39,786 nucleotides of DNA from a virus. Each line of letters opens with the position of its first letter. Within the stretch, counting starts at the first letter, position 1. Below the pieces are notes generated by a model, which was not told where the DNA came from, did no database searches, and saw only the letters and a program-made list of their open reading frames with translations. Both the position numbers and the translations under genes were made by a program. Of this stretch, positions 3,264-20,570 are shown one piece after another. The stretch spans positions 1 through 39,786 of the IMG/VR virus record IMGVR_UViG_3300030060_006119. One strand, written 5' to 3'.

Positions 3264-3425
3264 ATGGAAGGAGCTACCCTAAACATCACCACCGATAATG
3301 AAACGCAAGCCCGTCTCATCCTGTCGCTACTCACGAGAGCTGAAGAGGACGGCGAGCTGGACTTCGCTTTCGGATGCCGGATATCGCAAGTCAGAGAGAA
3401 AGTCGAATTCGACCACGCGCTTTAA
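3264..3425 (+). CDS. Unknown small protein, 53 residues
   Basis: ATG 15 bases after the previous stop, no Shine-Dalgarno sequence. Acidic helical product, not recognised. It is followed one base later by the ATG of a small membrane protein, which supports it as an operon member. Confidence 0.4.
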   Translation: MEGATLNITTDNETQARLILSLLTRAEEDGELDFAFGCRISQVREKVEFDHAL

Positions 3426-3426
3426 C

Positions 3427-3540
3427 ATGAAAAAAGAATTATCTGTTTACGAAGCTGTGCCCTTGGTGGCCGCTGTCTTCGTTGCGTCACTCCTCTTGAT
3501 TCATGCAGGACTTTCGCTTATCTCATATTTAAGTTCTTAA
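3427..3540 (+). CDS. Small membrane protein, 37 residues
   Basis: M-K-K-E-L start followed by one clear hydrophobic helix (residues ~11-34, V-P-L-V-A-A-V-F-V-A-S-L-L-L-I and onward). The positive N terminus suggests it faces the cytoplasm. It is the last gene before the structured RNA element. Small single-pass proteins in phage early regions often act on host membranes or exclusion, but nothing here shows a specific role. Confidence 0.45.
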   Translation: MKKELSVYEAVPLVAAVFVASLLLIHAGLSLISYLSS

Positions 3541-3544
3541 CTTT

Positions 3545-3620
3545 AAGTCGCACGGGCATGGTGCGCGGGGAGATCCCGCGACGGGGTAGCTTAGTCCCCA
3601 ATGAAACACCCGTGCGACTT
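3545..3620 (+). ncRNA. Predicted three-way-junction RNA element, unrecognised
   Basis: A perfect 12-bp stem (AAGTCGCACGGG at 3545-3556 with CCCGTGCGACTT at 3609-3620) encloses two further hairpins. One is CGCGGG/CCCGCG (3564-3569 with 3575-3580, loop GAGAT); the other is GGGG/CCCC (3583-3586 with 3596-3599, loop of nine). The region lies between the small-gene operon and the helicase promoter and contains no gene. It could end the upstream transcript, although no proper U-run follows (ACTTTCTT), or be a stable small RNA or processing site. I compared it from memory with tRNA, hammerhead, purine and glutamine riboswitch patterns and found no match. Confidence 0.6.
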
Positions 3621-3647
3621 TCTTAAAAAGATTATACCAAAAAGGGG

Positions 3648-3675
3648 TTGACATATTATTTCCCCCAGATATACT
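3648..3675 (+). promoter_or_regulatory. Sigma70-type promoter for the SF2 helicase
   Basis: Perfect TTGACA at 3648-3653, 16-bp spacer, TATACT at 3670-3675. The helicase ATG at 3693 follows by 17 bases, giving an expected leader of about ten nucleotides with no Shine-Dalgarno sequence. It lies immediately after the structured RNA element. Confidence 0.75.
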
Positions 3676-3692: not shown

Positions 3693-4991
3693 ATGAAGAC
3701 ATTATTCCCTAAGCAAGTTGGTATCTTTCAGTTCTTCCTCGGCCGTTTGTTACGGCGCAAGTCTACCTTAGATCAGTCTGACACTGGCACAGGCAAGACG
3801 GTTGTCGCCTGCAAGCTGGCGTCCGCTTTGTCTCCCCGCCCCGTCGCAGTCATTTGCCCGAAGGCGGTGATCCCATCTTGGGAGAGGGAGCTAGAAGAGG
3901 AGGGAGTCCAACCAGTGTTTGTCCTTAACTTAGAAAGTTTACGCACAGGTAAGACCGCTCACGTTTCCAAGGTAGGAAAGAAATCGTTCAAGTGGTTGCT
4001 CGATCCAGACACGGTTGTCTTTGTGGATGAGGTTCACAAGTGCAAAGGCCCGTTCACTCAGAACGCCGCGCTGTTCATCGCGCTCGTTAAACAGGGATTT
4101 ACTATTCACAGTATGTCCGGCACCAGTTGCGAAGACCCTACCGAGATGCGTCCCCTCGGGTGGGCGCTCGGACTGCACAGCGGAGATGTCAAGGTGGACG
4201 GGATGAAACGGTGGTGGCCATGGATGCGCCAGTATGGATGCGAGAAGAATGAGTGGGGTGCTTGGGTTTTACAGGACGGGTATTACCTACCAAAGCTACG
4301 AGCAAAGATGTATGCCGAGAGCACTCACCGTTTGACGGTGGATGATTTCCCCGCTGCCTTCAAAGAGAACCGCGTGTTCACCGTGCCAATAAATTTCCGC
4401 GAGAACAAAAAGATCATCAAGGCGTATGACGATCTTGGTATCACGCCAGATATTGTTGAGGATTACATCGAGAAGGGCACGGTCACTGATCGGGATCACG
4501 TCCTCGCTAACATCACTCGGGCTCGCCAGCTGGCCGAATCATTCAAGGTGGTGGACCTCGCCGAGATGGCCGAGGACTTGATGGATGAGGGTAAGTCAGT
4601 AGTTATATTTGTGAATTACAGCGCGACCATTGAAGCGCTACGCATCCGACTCAAGTGCGAGTTCATCGACGGGACTCAGACGGCGGCGGATCGTCAGCGG
4701 GTGATCGACGATTTCCAAGCGGACAAGACCCACTGCATCGCGGTCAATGCTGCAGCTGGCGGGACGGGCATCTCGCTCCACGATACGATTGGCAACCGCC
4801 CTCGCGTCTCACTGATCTCGCCGACGTTCAACTGCAAGACATACAAGCAGGTGCTCGGGCGTATCCACCGCAACGGTGGTAAGAGCGATGCGCTCCAGAA
4901 AGTTCTGGTCGCTAACGATTCAATCGAGGAGCACGTCATGCGGTCTATCGGACGGCGGCTCAATAACCTCAAAAGTTTACATGGAGTTTAA
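3693..4991 (+). CDS. SF2 DNA/RNA helicase (SNF2-like)
   Basis: A 432-residue superfamily 2 helicase. The first RecA lobe has Walker A D-T-G-T-G-K-T (residues 30-36), motif Ia around I-C-P-K-A-V-I-P-S-W (54-63), Walker B D-E-V-H (112-115) and motif III S-G-T-S (about 145). The second lobe has the F-V-N-Y segment, the D-G-T-Q ... R-Q-R-V-I-D-D-F-Q stretch, a G-G-T-G-I-S-L motif V and motif VI Q-V-L-G-R-I-H-R (386-393). These are the hallmarks of SNF2/UvsW-like phage helicases, which remodel branched DNA or displace proteins during replication and recombination. Compact size suggests a core motor without large accessory domains. It has its own promoter and overlaps the next gene by 11 bases. Confidence 0.9.
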   Translation: MKTLFPKQVGIFQFFLGRLLRRKSTLDQSDTGTGKTVVACKLASALSPRPVAVICPKAVIPSWERELEEEGVQPVFVLNLESLRTGKTAHVSKVGKKSFKWLLDPDTVVFVDEVHKCKGPFTQNAALFIALVKQGFTIHSMSGTSCEDPTEMRPLGWALGLHSGDVKVDGMKRWWPWMRQYGCEKNEWGAWVLQDGYYLPKLRAKMYAESTHRLTVDDFPAAFKENRVFTVPINFRENKKIIKAYDDLGITPDIVEDYIEKGTVTDRDHVLANITRARQLAESFKVVDLAEMAEDLMDEGKSVVIFVNYSATIEALRIRLKCEFIDGTQTAADRQRVIDDFQADKTHCIAVNAAAGGTGISLHDTIGNRPRVSLISPTFNCKTYKQVLGRIHRNGGKSDALQKVLVANDSIEEHVMRSIGRRLNNLKSLHGV

Positions 4992-5380: not shown

Positions 5381-5630
5381 AATAGAAGAGATCCTGAACA
5401 TCTTACAGACCGCCGCTGTTGACGGGGGATTCAAACTGTTCGTAAACAACGGGGAGATTGTAGCCGAAGACCTCTTGTCCGAAGCGCCCCTTATGTTTGA
5501 AATTTGTTTTAGAGGTAAAGACCTATCCGACCTCTCGGTTTTAGGGGCTTATTCTTTTGATGAAGGTTGGGCTAACCACTCTCGCGAATGGGAAGAACAT
5601 ATAGCTGATTACAGGGAGCGGGGTAATTAA
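5367..5630 (+). CDS. Unknown protein, 87 residues, last plus-strand gene of the left module
   Basis: Acidic alpha/beta-looking protein, not recognised. Its TAA stop (5628-5630) overlaps the TAA of the converging giant gene on the minus strand (5627-5629), and no terminator is visible between them. Confidence 0.55.
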   Translation: MKNPRIEEILNILQTAAVDGGFKLFVNNGEIVAEDLLSEAPLMFEICFRGKDLSDLSVLGAYSFDEGWANHSREWEEHIADYRERGN

Positions 5631-8600
5631 TCATCCAGCCGGAGGAACCGAGGGTTCTCTTGCTGTATGTCCATGATCCACTGCAGGCGCTGTCTCCCCT
5701 GCTCCGACTGCAATAGCTTATTGACCAGCTCGCGTGACGGAACGGGGTTCTCCATGAAGTCAGTGAACAAGAGCTTGGTCCGCCGGTCTCCATATTTCGC
5801 ACGCCTTAGTTCTCCGTAGAGGTCTTTAGCGGAGGCACCGAATCCGTTGAACCCTCGCAGGGCTTGCCGAAGTTTTAGATTTATTCTGGTCCTCGACCGA
5901 AGAACGTCTTCGTAAACTCTCTGAGTTTCTCCCTCTCCCATTGCGCCTTTGTTAAGCAGAGAATTAAATCTGCTATTAACACGTTGCTGCTCCGACTTCA
6001 TTCTGAATATGACATTGCGGAACTGGTCCGTTGAGTTCACTTGACGGAATCTCACGGGGTAAAACTCGCTCATCAGTATCCCGAAGGGTGAGTCCCCGAA
6101 CTTCTCGGTCACGCCTCCAGCGGCTTGGACTGCTTCAATTGCTTTCAATGCCGTCCGTGGGCCGTAGGCTTCCTTGCCGACATAGAGTAGCTGCTTGGCT
6201 AACTTTGTATGCACGGCGTCGGTCTCTTCAAAGATCGGCTTGTTAGTTCTGGCGTCTCGGTTTTCCCTAACGTCCATGATAGAGCCCGCCAAGATTTGAT
6301 CCCCAAGGTAAGGCTCAAGGAAAGCAGTGGTGATTGCTTTCTCGATTGCCTCGACAGGTTCCCCCCGAACAATGTGCTCGGTTGCTCGCAAGATGGGGTC
6401 AGCTATAACTGCAAAAGGATTTAGATAGGTAAGGTCCAACGTGACAAAGTCCCCATCGGTTGTCTTCATACCGCCCGCCAGTTTTCCAACCAAGCCAGCG
6501 AACTTGCCAAGAGGAGCGTCAGAAGTTCTAAAGTAATAGAACGTATGGTTTCTTAGGTATGGTGGCAGTGACATACGATACGCTTCGTCTTCCTCTTCCC
6601 CTATGTCAGAAACTAATTTAGCGATTAAGGCGGGTATCGCAGTAGAGAAAGCCATGACAGATGTGAAGCCTGCCAGTCTCTTCTGCCCTCTCCGCTTGAT
6701 AACGCGGTTGTCGTTTTTCATTTCCCTCAAAGCGAGAGTGAATGTATTCACCGCGATTCGTGGAACCTCGGCCGTGAACCTGACGAACGGAGCCACTACC
6801 AAACCAAGCGAGCTGCCTGTAAACTTCTTAATAACTGGCAGAGCTCTGGCATAAGACTGAGCTGTAGCTGAGATGATGTCCGCTGCATATTGCTTACGTT
6901 GAAGCTCGGTCATGTTCGTAAACGTCCGCTTGCTTTCCGGCATGGACTTCTCGGCTTTCATGGCTTCCTCAATAGTCGCCATCTCACTCTCGAAATAAGA
7001 CACCTTGTAAAAAGAATCCATAGCCGAACCGAGTCTCGCCGCCATAGCGCCTGCTTCGCTAAGCACCTTTTTACTTTTTGATTTAAGGGCTCGGTTGTTC
7101 AGGTCTTCAAGTTGATCTTGCAAGTTCGCAAAGCTCTCTTCTCCGCGCATGAGCTTGATCATTACTTCAGATCGAACCTCATCTCCGAATACTCCAAGCG
7201 CTTCCAGACTTCTCAGATATGCGCTGGTCTCTGCTTTCGTTCCCTTGAACGCACGCATAGCTGCGCTCCCGAATGATAGTCCGGTCCCTTTCAAGGGGTC
7301 GCCTTTAGCTAGAGCTGCGAATGAGGAGAACACCCGACCTTGTGCGGGTCCAAAAAACAGCACGTTACTGAGCGCGTTCCTCAGATAGAACCCAATCGAA
7401 CCTAGAGTTTTCAGCGCCATCGCACTACCCGTTGCTTTCTGAGCGCCCCGTAGGAGAGTCGCCATGAGTTGAGAGGATGCGTCTTCTGGTGCGCGGACTG
7501 TTTGTTGGAACAACGGCAACAGCCCTTCGAGGATTTCTTTGTCCACATACAATCCAGCCAGAGGATTCAACGGACTGTCAGATCCTTGCGGAACAATTGG
7601 TTCCATAGCCGAAAACTTTTGAAACTCCTCGTCTGTCTTTGCGTCATCTCGCTTTTGCTTTCGTTGAGCGCTAGTAAGAAGCCAAGGATTCTCCCCTTGA
7701 GTTCCGTAACGCCTCATCGAGTTCAAGAAAGTTTGATGTGATCCGATCTTAGCGACAGTCCCCATCGTGTATAGCAGCGCGTCTACACTTTCTTCAGGGA
7801 TGTTGTTAGCCCCCATCAGGTCCGCCAGCGGCTTAGGGATGTTGGCGCGTCCCTCCAAGTTCTTGGTCAGAGCTTTGAGTTCTCTGCTGGAGAACTTGTC
7901 GCTCCTCGTTTGTGTCTTATCTGTAAAATCAAACGCGGACTTAAAGTCAGCGGCCCCTTGCTCGGTGTCATACGAGTTCAAGAACTCTGCAATCATTTGG
8001 TGCCCCAATGATCTTTGGCCCCTAGACTTTTTATTGTAGCTATCTTCAGCTGCTTTTTGAGCATCGGCTAGTGACAGCTGAGCGCTGTTCTTCATCAGCG
8101 AATCTGTCTCTACCCTGATGTAATGGTCGCGCATGAACTCGATAGCGGCCTCTCGTATTTCAACGTCTGCCTGTCTAGTGGAGCTCAAGATTCTGTCTAC
8201 GTAGTCAGCTTCGTAGAACATCCTGTATCTACGGGTAACGTAAAGCCCCATGTTATTATCGAACTTTACGCTGATATCTTTCTTGCTGTATTTACCGAAG
8301 GCTCGTTTGGCCTGCTTCGATAGGTCGTCAGTAAGCCGCCGGAGGTCTAGCAAGATCGGGAACAAAGAAGGTGCCTTCTCTCGCAAACTAGAGAACGCTT
8401 GGTTGCGGAGCACAATCGCGTCTGCCTTCTTTGCATTAAAGGAAGTGTCGATGTCTTGTTGATAGGTATTATCTGCGGCCTCCGCAGCTGCTTCTCTGTT
8501 TAGCTTCAGCGCTTCCTTCGCGATCTTCTTCTTATCCCGAGTTTCTTTTCTAATCTTAGAGATCAGTTTCTTCTGTTTGTCGGGGTCGGGTTCTGTGGCG

Positions 8601-11600
8601 ATAGCTACGGTGATGTCGGCCTGCTCGGCAGCATCGAGTGCTTTGTATTGTGCGGCCATATCCGACTGATACTTTTGGCTCGCGGCTACCTTGGCCTTGT
8701 CTCGTTTTCCTATCAGTGCAAAGTCAGGGTCGGGGTCGATGTTATCTAACGATCCTACTGCTGCTTGTATCTCCTCCCACGGGATGTCGTTCTTGTCGGG
8801 GAAGTCCGACTCTAATGCGCGTTTATATTTATCGTGATACTCCTCCACCATCTTCTCAGATGTCCGAAGAAAAGCGTCACGCTGCCTAACAAACCTTTGC
8901 ACAGTAGGATCAGTTTCTCCTACAAATAGTTTCTTGAACTTGCTTCTGACTACCTTGAACGGACCGGCTTCAATGTAGGGAAGCTCCAGCACAGAAACAA
9001 AATCGCTGTAGTCTACCCCCTCTGAATTAAACTCAGATGGAAGATTCGACGCTGTCCCAAACGAACCAGCCTGCCCCGTGATCCCTGTCTCCAGAGTCAC
9101 GTCCTCTGGCGCTTGTTCCTCTGTCTGTTCTTCTTCCGTCTGTTCTTCTTCTGTCTGTTCTTTCTGAACTTGTTGTGGTGTATCTGGCCGCTCAACAGGC
9201 TTGTTCATATTAACCTGTTTTCTAAATTGTTCGATAAGAGCATCGGGGCTGTTGGCATCGAAAGCCATCATGGTAGGTTGATACCTGAACCCTGATTCCA
9301 TAGCCCTGATCTCGTTGACCACGCGCCCCACTGCCTGACGAAGTTGGGGGGTTATGTTCTTAGCTTCTCTGTAATAGCCCAGCCTCTTGAGGAATCTCTT
9401 AAAGTATCTGATTACATACTGGAGGATGCTTGGGTTCTGGGACAGGAAGATGACTTCTTCTTCAGTGGTGAAACCACGGACTACTTTCTGAGCGTGTTGT
9501 CTCAGATACTCTTCCATGATTGTGACTTGAGAAGAACGATTCCCCTGTTCCCATCCGGCGAGAAGTTCTTCCCGAGTAGTAGCGTTGCCCTCGTCGCCAT
9601 AGTTACTCATGGCTTGCTCCGCGTCAGCGAACGTCATCGACTCGATGATGGCGTCTTGCTCTTGAGTCGTGTTTGTTTTTACTGCAGCCGCGTGAGCTAT
9701 TTCTTCGTTAGAAATAACTGCCATTACGTTTAGCTGAGTCCTCAAGGGCATGGGGTCGCCACCGTTCTGAGCATTCAACGATGCTAAGTAAGCCGCTATT
9801 TTGATCGGGTTGATCGTCATAACGCCAGTGTCATTACTAACCGACATCATTGATATCGAGTTAGTGTCCACTACGACTTCTACTTCTGGTGGGACGATCT
9901 GATTTCTCAGATACTCAATAGTCCTCTCGACATTTTCAAATCCTTCTATCGCGGTAGTTTCTGTAACGCCTGTAGCCGCTCCGAGTCCTGACGCCAGACG
10001 AACGGAATCCCCCTGCTCTTGTGCGACCGACTCCGCGATCTGGCCCATGATTGCTTTTGTGGACAGAGGTTCTCTGGGTGCGCGGGGAGAAGCGATGAAC
10101 TTCTTCTGTGTTTCCGCAATCGAGGATTTAGATAAATCTAATACAGCAGAGAACGCGGAATCAAATGTCGGGTTGCTGCCTTTGATCAGTGACCTTATGT
10201 AAGAAATAATTTTCTGGAATATATTTCCGTCCGCCTTTGACGAAGCCGTCATCGACTTCACAAACTTTTGGAAGTCCGTTGAAGTTAAGAAGTGAGCAAT
10301 GAACTCATCTACGTTCGCGAGCCCATCATAAACACGAGTGTCGTGAAACTTGTAAACTTTGCGGTCAAACTTAACTGGATTGAACGGGTCCAACATCCTG
10401 ATGAAATCCGGTTCAAGCGCCTTAGATGACGTAGACTTAAAGTCTTCTTTTAGCTTTACGATTAAGTTAGTCAGGTTGTTGATCGCGGCTGCTTCTTTCC
10501 TACTCTGTTGTGACTGCGGTTTACGAGTCACTTGCGTAACATACGCATGGATCAATTCATGGATCAGAGTGTTGCCCACTCCTCTTGGGTTATACCCAGA
10601 AATGTTTATTGAGATAGACGGAGTGCCATCAATGAGCATTTCAAAGTCCCCAGCGTATTCGAGCGACGTGTCGTCGATGGTCAAATCGACGGTGGCTAAA
10701 AAGTCAGGAGATTGCAAAAGCAGCTTTGCCACTGCTTTTATATTAGCGTCGTAGTCTACTCCCCCTTCCTTTGAAACTCCGGCGATACGCTTTACAGCTT
10801 CGACCAAGGAATCACTGTCGTTAGATTTTAATCCTAGTTCTTCGATAGCTTGAGTATTTACTTCCCTATCATGTGCCCGAGACATTCCCGAGGGCTGCGA
10901 TCTAAGCAAGAGTTTGCCCACGGATCGCTTGACCTGACTGTGAAAGGCAATCACTTCGCTGTCGGTTATGTCTCTATCGCCAGCTATTTTACTGAGTTTA
11001 CTTTTCAGTGTGGCCCGATAGCTCTCGTTCGTTTTAGGCGAGCCTTCTACTGAGGCAGACGAAAGAGCCATGAGTTGAAGCGCCTCCCGCACTGGACCTC
11101 CGAGTCTATAGTTACCTGTTTTAAGTGCTTGCTGAAACTCAACCGAAGCAGGGTTGGCTCGATTGTTTCCTTGAGCCATCCACTGCATAGTAAGCCCGAG
11201 CAATTTTCTAGTAGAGGTATTGCCTATATCTTTCTTAGAAGAAGAGAACACCTCCGTATTAACCAAATTAACTATTGTTTGTTTAAGCGGTCTATCGGCG
11301 TCGATCGCAGCAATTGCGTTGGCCTCTGCTTCTTTCAAGATAGAAGCTATCCCTGTTTCTGAGAAAGCCCGAGTGCTCTCAGGGAAAGCTGTGTAAGAAT
11401 CTTCGGCCTCTGCCGAAGGATTAAACTCCTCATTCTGTTGTAGTGCTGAAGCAGATGTGACGCTAACTGTAGAAACAAAAGCAGCGTTAGAATATTTGAT
11501 ACGGTCTTTTTGTTCTTGGAGATACAGATCAGAAATCTCTCTCCCTAAAGATACCAAAGAAACATTCTGATTAGTGAACAGTGCATCCTGTGCCCTTAAT

Positions 11601-14600
11601 CGTAGTTCAATCAGCGCGGACCTTTGGAAGTCTGGGGATAGTTCTCCGGATGACGGAGCCACAAACTGCTCCATACCCAACCCAGAATCTAATCGAGCAA
11701 GCAAATCTTTTTTTGTTATCCTCGCGTCTGGAGCAAACGGTGATGGGATAAACTCATCAGGGTCAGTTAATCCTTCAGCTCTAAATGCTACTACTCTTTC
11801 TAGCAATTCTACAGTTCTCGTGTAGTCCGGTTGCAAGGTAGCCACCCGATCAAACGGGGTTAATGCTGAAACTACTCCACCATTTTGGGCGATCAGAATA
11901 TCCGCGACAAAAAAGTTATCCCCTATCTGCGAGAATCTAAAAGCAGGATTTACAGTAGCTGATCTCACAACGCTTTCTGGCACTACAATAGGAGTGCCTT
12001 GCTCGAACAAACCAAGCATGTTGGCTGGATTGTTATCGAACTGTCCGTTACCAAATCTATCGAGGTAAACTTTACCGCTGCCATACGTTGAGCTTAACGT
12101 GAGTCCGCCTTGTGGCTCACTTACTTTAACGTCAGGAAACTTTTCCGAGATACCGTCGCTAATCTTTTTATTTGTCGCCGCGATGAACTCGTCAGAAATT
12201 GTTCGCTCATTGACGGGTATGCCCAGCCTCTTCAGTTTTGACGCTGCGATTACTTCAGAGAAACCTTTGTCGATGACCGACTGCACAGCGGACTCTTCTT
12301 CGGGGTCCGCTTGCAATTCCTCAAACGAAATCTCTTCGTCTATCTTCAGTCCTTCTAACTCAACCACTCTCTTCTTGAAAGCGTCCCCCCTTAAATCTAC
12401 AGCTTCTTCTGGGGATACGGCGGTGCCTTCGTTTACATTCTTTTGCAGCGCCCGCATAGCAGGCGACTCGGATGAAAGGTCTCCTGCTTGAGCTTGCCGA
12501 TCTAGTTTTTTGTAGAGCGCTTCGGCTGCGTCGATTTCTTGTATGATCTGTCTGAACCCAGCTTCGATTGCTTCCGCATCTTCTTTCTTACTGGGGTCGA
12601 TGACTCGCTGTGTTTTTACAGTAGCCGAATCTACAAACTGATTGCGATTAAACTTAGGTGACTCTTTTTGTCCTGCGATAAGCCCACGAATAATCGCATG
12701 ATCCGAGTTTTCGTTAGAGCTGCTTTCCGCTAAGGGCAGTTCTAGCTGACGCATCATGTCTCCCTTTGCTTCAATAGTAGACGGGTCTAGCCCAGAAACG
12801 ACAGGGGTGTCTTCCGCCAATACTTCAGAGATAGCTTTAGCTGTAGTAGTCGGATTTACTCTTTCAGTTAAGCGGGCCTCGAACTCTGGGTTCGATGTAA
12901 TACCCGACGCAAGTTTCTCTGACTCTGAATCTGTTTCTTGGGTGTCTCCCGTTAATAACTGAACTGCTTCTTCAGGGGTAGGGACTTCGGACCTTCTTTG
13001 ATCCCGCCTGCCCCGCTCAGATATTATCGCTCGGAAAACATCTGCAGTTATAGGCGACCCACTTTCAGTTAAGTCACGGGAAGCGTCTTCTAAAATTTGA
13101 TCCAAGAACATGCTTTGTTCTCTCTGCTTGAGAACATCTGGCTGAAGTCGGCTGAGCCCTCTCCGAACAAGAGGAACAGACCCACCCATAACTCCCCCTA
13201 GAGCTACTGCATGGAAAGTCTGTTGCATCCTTTCGAGCATCGGAGTGTTCTCGTCGAGAGCAGCATCAGTAATCAGAGTGTTTACAAACTCATCAATGCC
13301 CTCTTCGATTCCTTCGTCTACAACATTTTTACCAATGCCTTTGGCGGTGCCAAACGCATGTTTCTTCATGGCAGATTTTATTGCCTTTCCGGCTGCATCA
13401 AGAAGGTCCCCCTCGACCATATTTGTTACCGACTTAGCAACCGTGTTCATTTGCTTTGTTGTCAACCCTCTGAGCAAGGCGTCTTCAAAACCTCCTTTGC
13501 CGATTAAACTAAAACCTGATACCAAAGACCCAGTAAATGTCATGGCCATAAGCCCTGAACCAAGTGCTCTGTCATGCGCCTCTTCAGGAGTTACATTGGG
13601 ATTCTGCTTCAGCTGATTGTAAACCGCGCCATAAGTTGCCGCCCCAGATCGTGTGCCCGCAGGAATAAATACCGCCGGAAGATTACCTAACTGAGCAGAT
13701 AATTTACTGTTATACGCTTTTAGAATATCAATCGCACCTTCTTTTGAGCCTTTGATAAAGTTGGCCGCGATCAGGTCTTCCGCTTGATCAGCTACTGACT
13801 TAGCCGAACTTGTCCTAAGTGTATTAGAAGTTATCGCTTTAATAATCCCCTTGCCTGTCAAACTAGCAGAAGATTTTCCGCCTGCTTTCAGGGCAGCATA
13901 AGCAATACCCCCCGCTCCACCAGCGGGTGCGGTGCCTGCGGCTAACAACGCCGTTGCACCAACGTCAATTAACATAGGAAAAGCGGTCTCTCCTAAATCT
14001 TGAAAGAACCCAAACTCTTGTCCGAAGACAGAAGCGAGTTGTCTACGGTCGGAGTTCGCCTGACTGACTGACGCTAAGTAATCTTTTGCTGGGTCAGCCC
14101 CAAGAGCAGCTGGCAGTGCGGCGACTAATTGCCCGAATCCGTTTATAAACGACATACCAATTCCGGCTGCCCGTTGGGCGAACTCGTTGTAGTTGTCTTT
14201 ATCCGCTACAAAGCCTTCTAGTATTTTGTAGTCATCAACTCCTGCTGATCTACCAACGACTAACGATTTATTCCATTCATCAGAGACAGCTGACTTTGAG
14301 AGGAACTTATCCAGATCAACAAATTGTGTTTTAAGAACGCTGATACGTTGCTTGTTAAGCATTGTCTTAACGTCATCACTCAAGTCGGGGTTTGCTGCAA
14401 GCGTCTTGTCGAAGACATCTTTGTTTATCATGGCCTGCATCGACATTGTCGGTAAGCCATACCCTCCCATCCTAAGATTTTTCCCAACATCAGCGTCGTC
14501 CGCATCGTGGAACTCGAACATTTGTTTGTTCGTGGCGTTTTCCAAAACCATTTGTTCCAACGCCAGCTGCATATCTTCAGGGCGCACATCATATTTAACC

Positions 14601-15379
14601 GCATACTTCGCGGCTAATTGATCCATATCAATACCCCTAGCTTCGTCCACCGCTTTGCGCCTTTTTTCCGCTTCGTCTACCGCATCTCCCCGACCCATAA
14701 CTCGGCTCAAAATATTAACTCCAAAACGTCCTATAGAGTTAAACTTGTGCTCGACCCAGTCCATTGTGCTATACTCGCTTTGAGCCGCTTCCGTGGATAG
14801 TCCGTCGAGTTCGATATCAAACTCAGTGTTTTGCTTGCGCTCTTCTTCGAGAAATCTTTGCGCGGCGGCAATTCTTTTTACCTTATACAGAGGCTCTTTA
14901 AAGCCATCGGGAATAGCGAGCTGCGCCTGCGCTGCCAGTGCATCCTGCATCCGGACTCCTGCATCCGAAGATATTTTAAGTGCGCTAACTAGATTCATGT
15001 CAGCTGCAGCATCCCCAACATACAGCTCTCCTGTGGACAAGCGAGCCATCGGCAACTCACCCGAGTCTACTTGTGCCCTGAACGAATCGTCTTTACTATC
15101 GTCAGACGGTGCGCCCTCTAATTCAGAGATTTGTTTTTGGACCTCTTCAAAGTTAGACCCATCATCATTCAGAATTTTGTCCCGTCTAAGAACGTCTACA
15201 AATCCTTTTCTAAAACCTTCTTCTATCTCAGCAGTGTAAGCATCTGCTTTGATGTATTCTTCGCGGAGATAATCCCCGAACTTTAATCTACTCTCCAAAG
15301 GATTGTCGTAGACGTTGGCACTAGACCACTCGGAAAACCCGAGGGTATTAACAGTTGGGGTATCAGTTTGCTCTGTCAT
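5627..15379 (-). CDS. Giant virion-type protein with zinc-metallopeptidase motif, 3250 residues
   Basis: One uninterrupted frame of 3250 codons, about a quarter of the window. Hydrophobic Gly/Ala-rich stretches occur near residues 405-500 and 590-620 and again near 2660 and 2910. A canonical zincin motif H-E-L-I-H (H1607, E1608, H1611) is followed by V-D-E-F-I-A-H (E1692), a plausible third-ligand region. A second segment at 1891-1896 reads N-E-E-I-A-H, like the same motif with its first His lost. A repeated T-E-E-E-Q linker lies at about 2070-2092, followed by a long charged region. The layout resembles large polyvalent or ejection proteins of phages, which enter the cell with the DNA and can process host or virion proteins. 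No T7-type RNA polymerase motifs were seen, so an N4-like virion polymerase is not supported. It ends the terminase/internal-protein operon. Role is inferred. Confidence 0.8.
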   Translation of the reverse strand: MTEQTDTPTVNTLGFSEWSSANVYDNPLESRLKFGDYLREEYIKADAYTAEIEEGFRKGFVDVLRRDKILNDDGSNFEEVQKQISELEGAPSDDSKDDSFRAQVDSGELPMARLSTGELYVGDAAADMNLVSALKISSDAGVRMQDALAAQAQLAIPDGFKEPLYKVKRIAAAQRFLEEERKQNTEFDIELDGLSTEAAQSEYSTMDWVEHKFNSIGRFGVNILSRVMGRGDAVDEAEKRRKAVDEARGIDMDQLAAKYAVKYDVRPEDMQLALEQMVLENATNKQMFEFHDADDADVGKNLRMGGYGLPTMSMQAMINKDVFDKTLAANPDLSDDVKTMLNKQRISVLKTQFVDLDKFLSKSAVSDEWNKSLVVGRSAGVDDYKILEGFVADKDNYNEFAQRAAGIGMSFINGFGQLVAALPAALGADPAKDYLASVSQANSDRRQLASVFGQEFGFFQDLGETAFPMLIDVGATALLAAGTAPAGGAGGIAYAALKAGGKSSASLTGKGIIKAITSNTLRTSSAKSVADQAEDLIAANFIKGSKEGAIDILKAYNSKLSAQLGNLPAVFIPAGTRSGAATYGAVYNQLKQNPNVTPEEAHDRALGSGLMAMTFTGSLVSGFSLIGKGGFEDALLRGLTTKQMNTVAKSVTNMVEGDLLDAAGKAIKSAMKKHAFGTAKGIGKNVVDEGIEEGIDEFVNTLITDAALDENTPMLERMQQTFHAVALGGVMGGSVPLVRRGLSRLQPDVLKQREQSMFLDQILEDASRDLTESGSPITADVFRAIISERGRRDQRRSEVPTPEEAVQLLTGDTQETDSESEKLASGITSNPEFEARLTERVNPTTTAKAISEVLAEDTPVVSGLDPSTIEAKGDMMRQLELPLAESSSNENSDHAIIRGLIAGQKESPKFNRNQFVDSATVKTQRVIDPSKKEDAEAIEAGFRQIIQEIDAAEALYKKLDRQAQAGDLSSESPAMRALQKNVNEGTAVSPEEAVDLRGDAFKKRVVELEGLKIDEEISFEELQADPEEESAVQSVIDKGFSEVIAASKLKRLGIPVNERTISDEFIAATNKKISDGISEKFPDVKVSEPQGGLTLSSTYGSGKVYLDRFGNGQFDNNPANMLGLFEQGTPIVVPESVVRSATVNPAFRFSQIGDNFFVADILIAQNGGVVSALTPFDRVATLQPDYTRTVELLERVVAFRAEGLTDPDEFIPSPFAPDARITKKDLLARLDSGLGMEQFVAPSSGELSPDFQRSALIELRLRAQDALFTNQNVSLVSLGREISDLYLQEQKDRIKYSNAAFVSTVSVTSASALQQNEEFNPSAEAEDSYTAFPESTRAFSETGIASILKEAEANAIAAIDADRPLKQTIVNLVNTEVFSSSKKDIGNTSTRKLLGLTMQWMAQGNNRANPASVEFQQALKTGNYRLGGPVREALQLMALSSASVEGSPKTNESYRATLKSKLSKIAGDRDITDSEVIAFHSQVKRSVGKLLLRSQPSGMSRAHDREVNTQAIEELGLKSNDSDSLVEAVKRIAGVSKEGGVDYDANIKAVAKLLLQSPDFLATVDLTIDDTSLEYAGDFEMLIDGTPSISINISGYNPRGVGNTLIHELIHAYVTQVTRKPQSQQSRKEAAAINNLTNLIVKLKEDFKSTSSKALEPDFIRMLDPFNPVKFDRKVYKFHDTRVYDGLANVDEFIAHFLTSTDFQKFVKSMTASSKADGNIFQKIISYIRSLIKGSNPTFDSAFSAVLDLSKSSIAETQKKFIASPRAPREPLSTKAIMGQIAESVAQEQGDSVRLASGLGAATGVTETTAIEGFENVERTIEYLRNQIVPPEVEVVVDTNSISMMSVSNDTGVMTINPIKIAAYLASLNAQNGGDPMPLRTQLNVMAVISNEEIAHAAAVKTNTTQEQDAIIESMTFADAEQAMSNYGDEGNATTREELLAGWEQGNRSSQVTIMEEYLRQHAQKVVRGFTTEEEVIFLSQNPSILQYVIRYFKRFLKRLGYYREAKNITPQLRQAVGRVVNEIRAMESGFRYQPTMMAFDANSPDALIEQFRKQVNMNKPVERPDTPQQVQKEQTEEEQTEEEQTEEQAPEDVTLETGITGQAGSFGTASNLPSEFNSEGVDYSDFVSVLELPYIEAGPFKVVRSKFKKLFVGETDPTVQRFVRQRDAFLRTSEKMVEEYHDKYKRALESDFPDKNDIPWEEIQAAVGSLDNIDPDPDFALIGKRDKAKVAASQKYQSDMAAQYKALDAAEQADITVAIATEPDPDKQKKLISKIRKETRDKKKIAKEALKLNREAAAEAADNTYQQDIDTSFNAKKADAIVLRNQAFSSLREKAPSLFPILLDLRRLTDDLSKQAKRAFGKYSKKDISVKFDNNMGLYVTRRYRMFYEADYVDRILSSTRQADVEIREAAIEFMRDHYIRVETDSLMKNSAQLSLADAQKAAEDSYNKKSRGQRSLGHQMIAEFLNSYDTEQGAADFKSAFDFTDKTQTRSDKFSSRELKALTKNLEGRANIPKPLADLMGANNIPEESVDALLYTMGTVAKIGSHQTFLNSMRRYGTQGENPWLLTSAQRKQKRDDAKTDEEFQKFSAMEPIVPQGSDSPLNPLAGLYVDKEILEGLLPLFQQTVRAPEDASSQLMATLLRGAQKATGSAMALKTLGSIGFYLRNALSNVLFFGPAQGRVFSSFAALAKGDPLKGTGLSFGSAAMRAFKGTKAETSAYLRSLEALGVFGDEVRSEVMIKLMRGEESFANLQDQLEDLNNRALKSKSKKVLSEAGAMAARLGSAMDSFYKVSYFESEMATIEEAMKAEKSMPESKRTFTNMTELQRKQYAADIISATAQSYARALPVIKKFTGSSLGLVVAPFVRFTAEVPRIAVNTFTLALREMKNDNRVIKRRGQKRLAGFTSVMAFSTAIPALIAKLVSDIGEEEDEAYRMSLPPYLRNHTFYYFRTSDAPLGKFAGLVGKLAGGMKTTDGDFVTLDLTYLNPFAVIADPILRATEHIVRGEPVEAIEKAITTAFLEPYLGDQILAGSIMDVRENRDARTNKPIFEETDAVHTKLAKQLLYVGKEAYGPRTALKAIEAVQAAGGVTEKFGDSPFGILMSEFYPVRFRQVNSTDQFRNVIFRMKSEQQRVNSRFNSLLNKGAMGEGETQRVYEDVLRSRTRINLKLRQALRGFNGFGASAKDLYGELRRAKYGDRRTKLLFTDFMENPVPSRELVNKLLQSEQGRQRLQWIMDIQQENPRFLRLDD

Positions 15380-18745: not shown

Positions 18746-18774
18746 AGAATATGAATTAAAGGGTTTTGTGTCAA
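18746..18774 (-). promoter_or_regulatory. Strong sigma70-type promoter for the internal-protein operon
   Basis: On the minus strand: TTGACA (18774-18769), 17-bp spacer, TATTCT (18751-18746). It overlaps the last four bases of the large terminase gene and points into the 130-residue gene, whose ATG is 25 bases beyond the -10 box. It would allow the virion-protein genes to be expressed more strongly than the terminase. Confidence 0.75.
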
Positions 18775-20558
18775 TCCAGCAAAACGGCATCGCGGTTTTG
18801 TAAGGCCTGCCCTAACTGTTTAATCGTAGTTCTCCGATATGGCTTTCCGTTCTTTGGATCGTCAGGTGGGTCTACGGCTACCAGCCCAAGTCTTTGGCGG
18901 GCACAATCTAGTGCTAGAAATGCAGCATCTGCAAGGTCAGGGCTCCTTCCAAAACGAGCTTTGAATTCTGGTTTTGTTTCAATTTTAACTTTTAAGGTGC
19001 CGCTCTTCACCATGTCGTAGTTACGACTAGTAATTTCTTGAGCTAAATCAGCGTTAATTCCAAAGACTTGACGAGTTCGCATCAACTCTTTGCCCACGAA
19101 CCAAAGCTCTGACACCCTATTAACGTATAGTTCAGTGCCTATTGCCTGACTGTTAGCGCTTACTCGCTTGTCGCTTGCTTTGCCTCCGAATCCTACGCGC
19201 AAGAATCCACTAGCCCATTCTCCAGCAAGCACGTCACAAAACGGAGCCCCCGCTCCTGTTGCGTCTACGGCAACATTCTCAGCAGGTATGTTGTGCTTAA
19301 CACAATAATTTTTTATCTGTTTAACTATTTGGTATGTTCTAGGAATTGATTTGTTTGTCGCGTCATCATTCAGATGAACGGCGTCCCCAAACTCAATAAC
19401 ATACTGTCCTGTTATGTCATACCCCACAGCTGCCGTGTAAAGAATGGTTCGGTCTCCTCCATTTGTAAATGCGGGGTCGATTCCTGCTACAAAAGTAGGC
19501 TTACCTTGCCACTGAACTTTATTCATGGCTTTGCTTAATGTTAATTCATTTTCTCCATATATGCCTGTTGTTTCATCCGAATCAAAGAATATGGCCCGAA
19601 CCATTCGCATGTAGCCCCTAGACTCTGGACCTAACAAACCTTTATCCTCGTCAATTTTTTCTTGGGTAGGAAGCCAAGGATAAAGAACTTCTCCGGCTAC
19701 AATATTAGGGGACCGCTCTCCATCTAAGCGTATGTAGTCGCCACCCCATTTAGTAGCCCACCCGTCGTCTTGATTAGTGTCTACTGAGTCCCATCCGTTG
19801 ATCGGCTCTGACCAGATCCCAAACGCATCAAATCGCGAGTTGGGGTTGCTCATGCCAATAAGCTGGAACTCAGGGTTTTTTGAGAGGTTAGATAGGCCAG
19901 CCTGCAAGATCGCTTCTGATAACTCCGATAACTCATCTCCGATTAAGATGACTCTCTTTTGTTTAATACCGATAAATTTACCAACTGCTTCTCGCGTTTT
20001 GCTTTTCTCAGCCGCGATCAAAGATATCCCAGCTCGTTCTATCAGTGTTCCTTTTTCGTCAATGTAGGCTGCGTTGCCAATTGAATCCCGAATCTTGATC
20101 GGTGCGCCATCAATCACGGAAAGCAAAGACATGACAGACCCCCAAATTCGCTTGCGTGCTTCGCGCAGCGTAGTCGAAGTCATCAAGACTAATGTGTCTT
20201 TGGGCTTAGAAAGCCAATTAACAATCCCCCAAGCCGCCATGGTGTGAGACTTTCCCGATGATGCGGAGCCCCCAACAGCTAAGTATTTATTGTTTAGTGC
20301 CGCCCAAACCATTTGTTCTGCCCAAGGGTGGCGTATCATTAATTTTTCAGGCAGGTCTTCGTGGTTCCAGAGCTCGTCGCAGATTCTCCAAAAATAATAC
20401 TCTTTTGCTCTAAGATGCTCGTGGTTTGCAAACCCATACAACAAACCAGTTATCATACTGGTAGGAGGAATTGACAACCCGCCTATGACCATGCGTTTCG
20501 TTTTTGCATCTATTCGGGGCTCTAGTATCTGCTTGATGCTTGCGTTGCTTACGGCCAT
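18771..20558 (-). CDS. terL: Terminase large subunit
   Basis: ATPase-nuclease motor that cuts and packages phage DNA into the prohead. With the ATG at 20558 the protein has 595 residues; an upstream GTG at 20570 would add four. Walker A G-G-S-A-S-S-G-K-S is at about 96-104, Walker B V-I-L-I-G-D-E (~203-209) and a coupling-type segment G-M-S-N-P-N-S at ~235. The C-terminal RNase H-like nuclease shows V-A-G-I-D-P-A-F, then V-A-V-D-A-T-G-A-G and D-L-A-D-A-A-F, giving three acidic positions. Length and motif order fit TerL. It is transcribed away from the small subunit. A promoter (TTGTCA/TAATCT) places the transcript start about five bases before the ATG. Confidence 0.93.
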   Translation of the reverse strand: MAVSNASIKQILEPRIDAKTKRMVIGGLSIPPTSMITGLLYGFANHEHLRAKEYYFWRICDELWNHEDLPEKLMIRHPWAEQMVWAALNNKYLAVGGSASSGKSHTMAAWGIVNWLSKPKDTLVLMTSTTLREARKRIWGSVMSLLSVIDGAPIKIRDSIGNAAYIDEKGTLIERAGISLIAAEKSKTREAVGKFIGIKQKRVILIGDELSELSEAILQAGLSNLSKNPEFQLIGMSNPNSRFDAFGIWSEPINGWDSVDTNQDDGWATKWGGDYIRLDGERSPNIVAGEVLYPWLPTQEKIDEDKGLLGPESRGYMRMVRAIFFDSDETTGIYGENELTLSKAMNKVQWQGKPTFVAGIDPAFTNGGDRTILYTAAVGYDITGQYVIEFGDAVHLNDDATNKSIPRTYQIVKQIKNYCVKHNIPAENVAVDATGAGAPFCDVLAGEWASGFLRVGFGGKASDKRVSANSQAIGTELYVNRVSELWFVGKELMRTRQVFGINADLAQEITSRNYDMVKSGTLKVKIETKPEFKARFGRSPDLADAAFLALDCARQRLGLVAVDPPDDPKNGKPYRRTTIKQLGQALQNRDAVLLD

Positions 20559-20561
20559 AAT
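20533..20561 (+). promoter_or_regulatory. Possible promoter for the terS/replication operon
   Basis: TTGATG (20533-20538), 17-bp spacer, CATAAT (20556-20561), inside the first codons of terL. Expected start is near 20568, 20 bases before the terS GTG. Weaker than the opposing promoter, but no other candidate is visible in the 30-bp gap. Confidence 0.4.
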
Positions 20562-20570
20562 AAAAATCAC

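Follow-up and report, generated by a model that had tools for sequence, protein, structure and literature searches.

A structured RNA family with a conserved three-way junction is widespread in uncultured phages and recurs in bacterial and archaeal genomes

We analyzed a 39,786-nucleotide stretch of viral DNA (IMG/VR record IMGVR_UViG_3300030060_006119), here called the window, and focused on a gap between the end of a small open reading frame (ORF) at position 3540 and the start of a helicase ORF at 3693. A preliminary description, made from the sequence alone, had placed a folded RNA element in this gap and considered the gap free of genes, which it is. The small gene upstream is best read as coding for a 37-aa protein with a single membrane span (3427–3540, + strand); it is conserved in related phages, and in the window its stop codon lies 4 nt before the first stem of the element. 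Two tiny ORFs, at 3264–3425 (~53 aa) and 3427–3540 (37 aa), end shortly before the element in this phage group. Downstream lies a gene for a 432-aa superfamily 2 DNA helicase (3693–4991, + strand), preceded by a sigma-70-like promoter, TTGACA-16-TATACT (3648–3675, + strand), matching the pattern at 11 of 12 positions. The strong promoter reported just downstream of the element is thus real as a pattern, but it lies outside the RNA and is part of the helicase unit, not of the element; relatives have comparable promoters downstream of their copies. Elsewhere in the window, a single 3250-aa ORF (5627–15379, − strand) takes up about a quarter of the phage window, and a VWA-like DUF2201 protein (Pfam 1.5e-11) is encoded near the left end (2–970, + strand), an unexpected neighbor for a phage early region.

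The element is on the + strand, and the 76 bases at 3545–3620 fold in RNAfold as a three-way junction with an MFE of −40.3 kcal/mol. Dinucleotide shuffling gave a mean of −25.8 kcal/mol, and none of 200 shuffles was as good (z = −4.41), in agreement with the earlier judgment that the stems are far better than chance. The outer stem, P1, pairs AAGTCGCACGGG (3545–3556) with CCCGTGCGACTT (3609–3620) over the perfect 12 bp reported before, and both strands are assigned from the fold and from covariation. Next come the junction strand J1/2, CAUG (3557–3560), which is near-invariant across the family, and P2 (3561–3582; fold and family covariation), made up of GU, a bulged G3563, 6 bp, a GAGAU pentaloop (3570–3574), and AC. 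P3 (3583–3599; fold and alignment) is a GGGG-loop-CCCC hairpin, and the remaining junction strand, J3/1, is AAUGAAACA (3600–3608), in which GAAACA is near-invariant in the alignment and in a scan that was not anchored on GAAACA. The two GC-rich hairpins proposed within the outer stem are both present, and P2 is strong, with its 6 bp and the GU/AC beneath the bulged G, but P3 is weaker than had been described, a short and modest hairpin of four G-C pairs with a 9-nt loop. The covariance model of the family, R1, has a single match in the window, at 3543–3622 (+ strand; 78.7 bits, E 1.6e-18), a score that the window copy has by construction, having served as the first of the model's seed sequences.

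At the helicase locus of related phage contigs (L001–L004), the element occupies the corresponding position; its stems differ by compensatory changes, and its core is unchanged. When viral contigs were scanned with CATGGTG...GGAGANCC and the 3′ part was left unconstrained, many matches also had AC after P2, GAAACA, and P1 pairing of unrelated sequence. Matches without GGGAGA in a scan anchored on CATGGTG...AATGAAACACC were mostly coding repeats or chance, and were rejected as members. The combined pattern occurs in at least 119 viral stretches and in 33 stretches in genome contigs, and a complete scan anchored solely on GGGAGANCC...AC...ATGAAACACC found 78 stretches. Among the 62 distinct members from this last scan, which lacks the CATGGTG anchor, 55 have exactly CATGGTG, six have one-base variants, and one has it shifted by one base, and all 50 of the loci newly fetched from it match the model with E < 1e-9; because CATGGTG is recovered in a scan that did not use it, the conservation of the core is not an artefact of the search strings. 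In total, there are at least 164 distinct member sequences in at least 160 loci, mostly uncultured phage contigs. The preliminary description had suggested looking for homologs with compensatory changes in the 12-bp stem, and many such homologs exist. The window element almost certainly belongs to a new and widespread family of structured RNAs. A mobile repeat as the sole explanation is rejected, with stems that are unrelated across the family while the core holds.

The consensus runs from P1 (~8–14 bp, with a mean of 10 contiguous bp) through CAUG, a P2 of the form GUG[4 bp, GG-GAGAN-CC, 4 bp]AC, a variable P3, and (A)UGAAACA to P1′. P2 thus consists of GU, the bulged G, four variable pairs, GG, the GAGAN loop, CC, the partners of the four variable pairs, and AC, of which the GG/CC, the GU/AC, and the loop are conserved. 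Some 20 bases of junction and P2 loop are near-invariant, and the stems vary freely; P3 is variable in both length and sequence and is nearly lost in some archaeal copies. In an alignment of 52 sequences, standard pairs make up 86.3% of pair cells, two-sided changes are present at all 14 P1 pairs and at the four variable P2 pairs, and covariation is 0.731, compared with 0.186 +/- 0.013 for shuffled controls and 0.13–0.18 with slid partners. Covariation is similarly high (0.671 versus 0.172 shuffled) in 44 distinct members outside the model, in a held-out alignment that was itself fitted to the model, and RNAalifold recovers the same fold without a constraint. Members found without P2 anchoring have the loops GGAAU and GGGAU in addition to GAGAN, and in one (L310) the loop-closing pair of P2 is swapped; these variants suggest that the P2 loop is a GNRA+N-type pentaloop.

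The pairs also tell the strands apart. G·U pairs outnumber A·C mismatches 37:5 in P1 and 14:2 in P2, and therefore it is the sense RNA that carries the structure, not the DNA or the antisense strand. A DNA site, such as an attachment site or an origin hairpin, is rejected by this asymmetry and by the orientation of the element relative to genes. Compensatory changes, tolerance of G·U on the sense strand, and orientation to genes together mark the element as a functional structured RNA rather than a chance hairpin or a DNA site.

The earlier view that no known family matches is upheld: none of the 4227 models of Rfam 15 matches at the element at gathering thresholds, and permissive searches (E up to 10 or 1) with the window copy and other members gave scattered chance matches and no recurring family. 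Neither a matching motif nor the core strings turned up in a literature search. One large automated screen for viral RNA structures reportedly yielded over ten thousand candidates from IMG/VR, and the family may already be an unnamed cluster in large screens of this kind. The c4 antisense RNA, found upstream of ant genes in proteobacterial phages, has no match at any threshold used (RF01695). Along with c4, other orphan motifs of phages and metagenomes (manA, wcaG, and GOLLD/ROOL) resemble the element in being structured RNAs recognized by covariation, but none of their Rfam models matches it, and those that are known differ in fold or size or are bound to a fixed gene context. The phi29 pRNA is also a phage RNA with a three-way junction, but it belongs to one phage group only, is larger, and is tied to the packaging ATPase, and the element has no similar context. 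REP/BIME and other 3′-UTR stabilizers likewise lie shortly after stop codons, have a strong stem, and occur in several copies per genome; REPs, however, are simple palindromes of one clade, whereas the conserved three-way-junction core of the element is shared across phyla and domains, and its stems vary freely. A tRNA or tRNA-like reading was prompted by GGGGUAGCUUAGU in P3, and was rejected because P3 is the variable part.

Two ribozyme classes deserve closer comparison. Hammerhead ribozymes share with the element a three-way junction, an invariant core with GAAA, and variable stems, but the element lacks the CUGANGA strand and its junction strands measure 4/0/9, compared with 7/4/2 in the hammerhead, which cleaves at NUH; the consensus junction (CAUG / none / (A)UGAAACA), the lack of an Rfam hammerhead match, and the lack of permuted forms led us to reject this identity. 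Theta and other HDV-like ribozymes form a nested double pseudoknot with a catalytic C and self-cleave next to the 3′ end of a tRNA, whereas the element is a three-way junction with another core, located mainly at gene ends. Theta ribozymes are HDV-like ribozymes of gut phages, small structured RNAs in Caudoviricetes that often lie directly beside tRNA genes (PMC10879173). The element resembles them in being a small structured phage RNA with tRNA adjacency, but no HDV-type Rfam model matches it, and most of its tRNA-adjacent members lie 5′ of the tRNA or face it.

Genome contigs with members come from Acidobacteria, Verrucomicrobia, Planctomycetota, Actinobacteria, Myxococcales, one proteobacterium, and Thaumarchaeota/Nitrososphaerales MAGs, so that about six bacterial phyla are represented; cultured carriers include Terriglobus albidus DSM 26559, Geminisphaera colitermitum TAV2, and Acidobacteriaceae KBS 83. 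Carriers number 2 of 247 in an Acidobacteria sample and 3 of 289 in a Verrucomicrobia sample. One Thaumarchaeota MAG has 17 copies and a second has five, and in a sample of 300 Thaumarchaeota genomes members were found solely in the 17-copy MAG. The copies in this MAG fall into groups with shared P1 sequences, several are beside similar surface-protein genes, and many lie ~65–125 nt after a stop codon, past a hairpin and a T-rich tract. The genes before many of these copies encode proteins ending in a shared hydrophobic anchor and basic tail; in the Thaumarchaeota loci L189, L192, L202, L204, L214, and L304, this C-terminal hydrophobic segment and basic tail (~GVLFSRRKKV*) look like a surface-protein anchor or sorting signal, and the element may have spread together with this gene family. 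Among cultured phages (50,697 phage records), blastn with the window region and with three core consensus sequences found no convincing member, only short chance pieces. A weak R1 match (20.9 bits) in Microcystis phage Mwe-Yong1318-1 (L313:1481–1562) sits close to the gene for the small terminase, within a gap of 440 bp, and has P2, AC, and an AUUGAACAC strand in common with the family, but not CATGGTG; it could be a distant branch or chance, and is doubtful. The patchy distribution, with a core that is constant everywhere, fits an RNA borne by mobile elements, and its occurrence in bacteria, phages, and archaea favors a role that rests on the RNA itself or on machinery that is universal.

Members have a preferred orientation relative to genes. 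ORF ends lie within 20 nt upstream of 22 members in the same orientation and of none in the opposite one, and within 100 nt the counts are 42 co-oriented and four opposite, although gene calls are mechanical ORF picks and these counts are approximate. The held-out set has the same trend in weaker form, with 5 of 46 contexts in the 0–20 nt bin; many members are more than 100 nt from the nearest long ORF, so the tight link to an upstream stop codon holds for part of the family only. A second association is with tRNA genes, which lie within 60 nt of 12 of the 164 members, mostly at 1–13 nt (0.8 expected). These members are located 5′ of phage tRNA-Arg(UCU), just 3′ of tRNAs, or facing a tRNA-Phe, and certain members are directly 5′ of a tRNA or gene rather than behind one. 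In a Xylanimicrobium pachnodae contig (L191:1437–7742), 26 tRNA genes stand in a row with long, strongly folded spacers, and the spacer directly after tRNA-Ala holds a member of the family, the only copy found when the array's spacers were searched for divergent members. Another spacer of this array (6497–6577) folds as a different three-way junction, and others hold tRNA-like pieces.

The genes next to members are diverse, both upstream (RusA, SSB, replication initiation, a sigma-like factor, endolysin, and head protease) and downstream (helicases, Erf, integrase, and others), and there is therefore no single gene partner. Because members neighbor many unrelated genes as well as tRNAs, and because they extend to bacteria and archaea, a site special to this phage operon is not supported, and neither is the packaging-type RNA suggested in the preliminary description. 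The window's terminase gene (18771–20570) is also ~15 kb from the element.

The comparisons establish the family, its fold, the strand that carries it, and its position relative to genes and tRNAs. Our best explanation, which is tentative and could well be wrong, is that the element is an autonomous cis-acting RNA-boundary or 3′-end module. Transcription would place it at an mRNA end or beside a tRNA, and it would fold alone into a compact three-way junction, with a long P1, a P2 of fixed length bearing a GNRA+N-type loop, and the conserved GAAACA strand. The folded element would then fix and protect the end of the upstream RNA, or set that RNA apart from the sequence behind it; in the window, the message of the small upstream genes would have its end at the element, before the promoter of the helicase. 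We speculate that P2, with its fixed length and GNRA-type loop, lies along the long P1 to form a compact cap. The simplest account is that the element protects or defines the end of the RNA upstream, and we infer both the action in cis and protection or processing as its effect. Many archaeal copies also follow gene ends, in favor of a boundary module; against it, the stop-codon link is partial and the archaeal copies are ~65–125 nt distant from the stop. Simple protection by a stem would not call for this many invariant bases, and the account therefore lacks something, be it catalysis, a protein contact, or a tertiary contact.

The leading alternative, although on balance unlikely, is that these small RNAs cleave themselves and constitute a new ribozyme class, with a predicted active site at the three-way junction (CAUG / GU-G...AC / GAAACA) and stems that serve as scaffolding. 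Its size (~80 nt), the invariant core with freely varying stems, the tandem pairs of members that occur, the lack of a fixed gene partner, and the scatter in phages, bacteria, and archaea all speak for such a ribozyme. The tRNA adjacency recalls that of phage theta ribozymes (PMC10879173), and by analogy with what is proposed for them, cleavage might, again improbably, free mRNA ends or trim tRNA neighbors. However, no known ribozyme family matches, and circular permutants, which are frequent in known small ribozymes, are absent from the viral collection; apparent permutants were rejected, being tandem copies, ordinary members with GAAACA ahead of them by chance, or coding repeats. The long P1 would also keep the cleavage products together.

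Less probable still is a trans-acting small RNA freed from a 3′ UTR or tRNA transcript, which might bind a protein or host RNA through the GAGAN loop or the GAAACA strand; the element may also be a stable phage small RNA, as had been proposed before. The element is compact, stable, often last in its transcript, and has a conserved apical loop at a constant position, and a terminator-like site follows 6 of 97 phage and bacterial members (1.8 expected). Nonetheless, no consistent promoter of its own was found, phage genomes hold about one or two copies each, many of which directly abut gene ends, and it would be unusual for hosts from different domains to have a target in common, unless that target is universal.

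We consider it very unlikely that the element works in cis on the downstream RNA, either as a riboswitch-like regulatory switch or as a put-like antiterminator. The junction has an aptamer-like core with conserved unpaired bases, and many members lie ahead of co-oriented genes, but the downstream genes do not have the common function by which a riboswitch would be recognized, at the loci read (L046 and L061) there is no competition between P1′ and the terminator that follows, certain members face a tRNA on the opposite strand, and the window has a promoter lying between the element and the next gene. An elaborate intrinsic terminator or a simple RNase III hairpin is the least probable reading of all: a perfect GC-rich outer stem is followed by TTTCTT in the window and 21 of 97 members have a T-run close to where P1 ends, but a terminator tool calls none at the window element, the closest relatives (L002–L004) have no U-run after P1 and already largely refute a terminator, as the preliminary description had anticipated in noting the lack of a proper U-run, and neither role, including the plain RNase III processing site suggested there, would need ~20 near-invariant junction and loop bases.

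With these ~20 core bases, stems that are freely exchanged, and no curated family to which it belongs, the element points to a function that depends on the exact shape of the RNA, and its placement at gene ends and tRNAs makes it a candidate for a new ribozyme or RNA-end device. The consensus and covariance model make the family directly testable. Should self-cleavage prove true, phages of many bacterial phyla and some Thaumarchaeota would be using this ribozyme to cut, or to define, the ends of their mRNAs and tRNA transcripts. More generally, culture-based collections miss RNA families that are common in uncultured phages.
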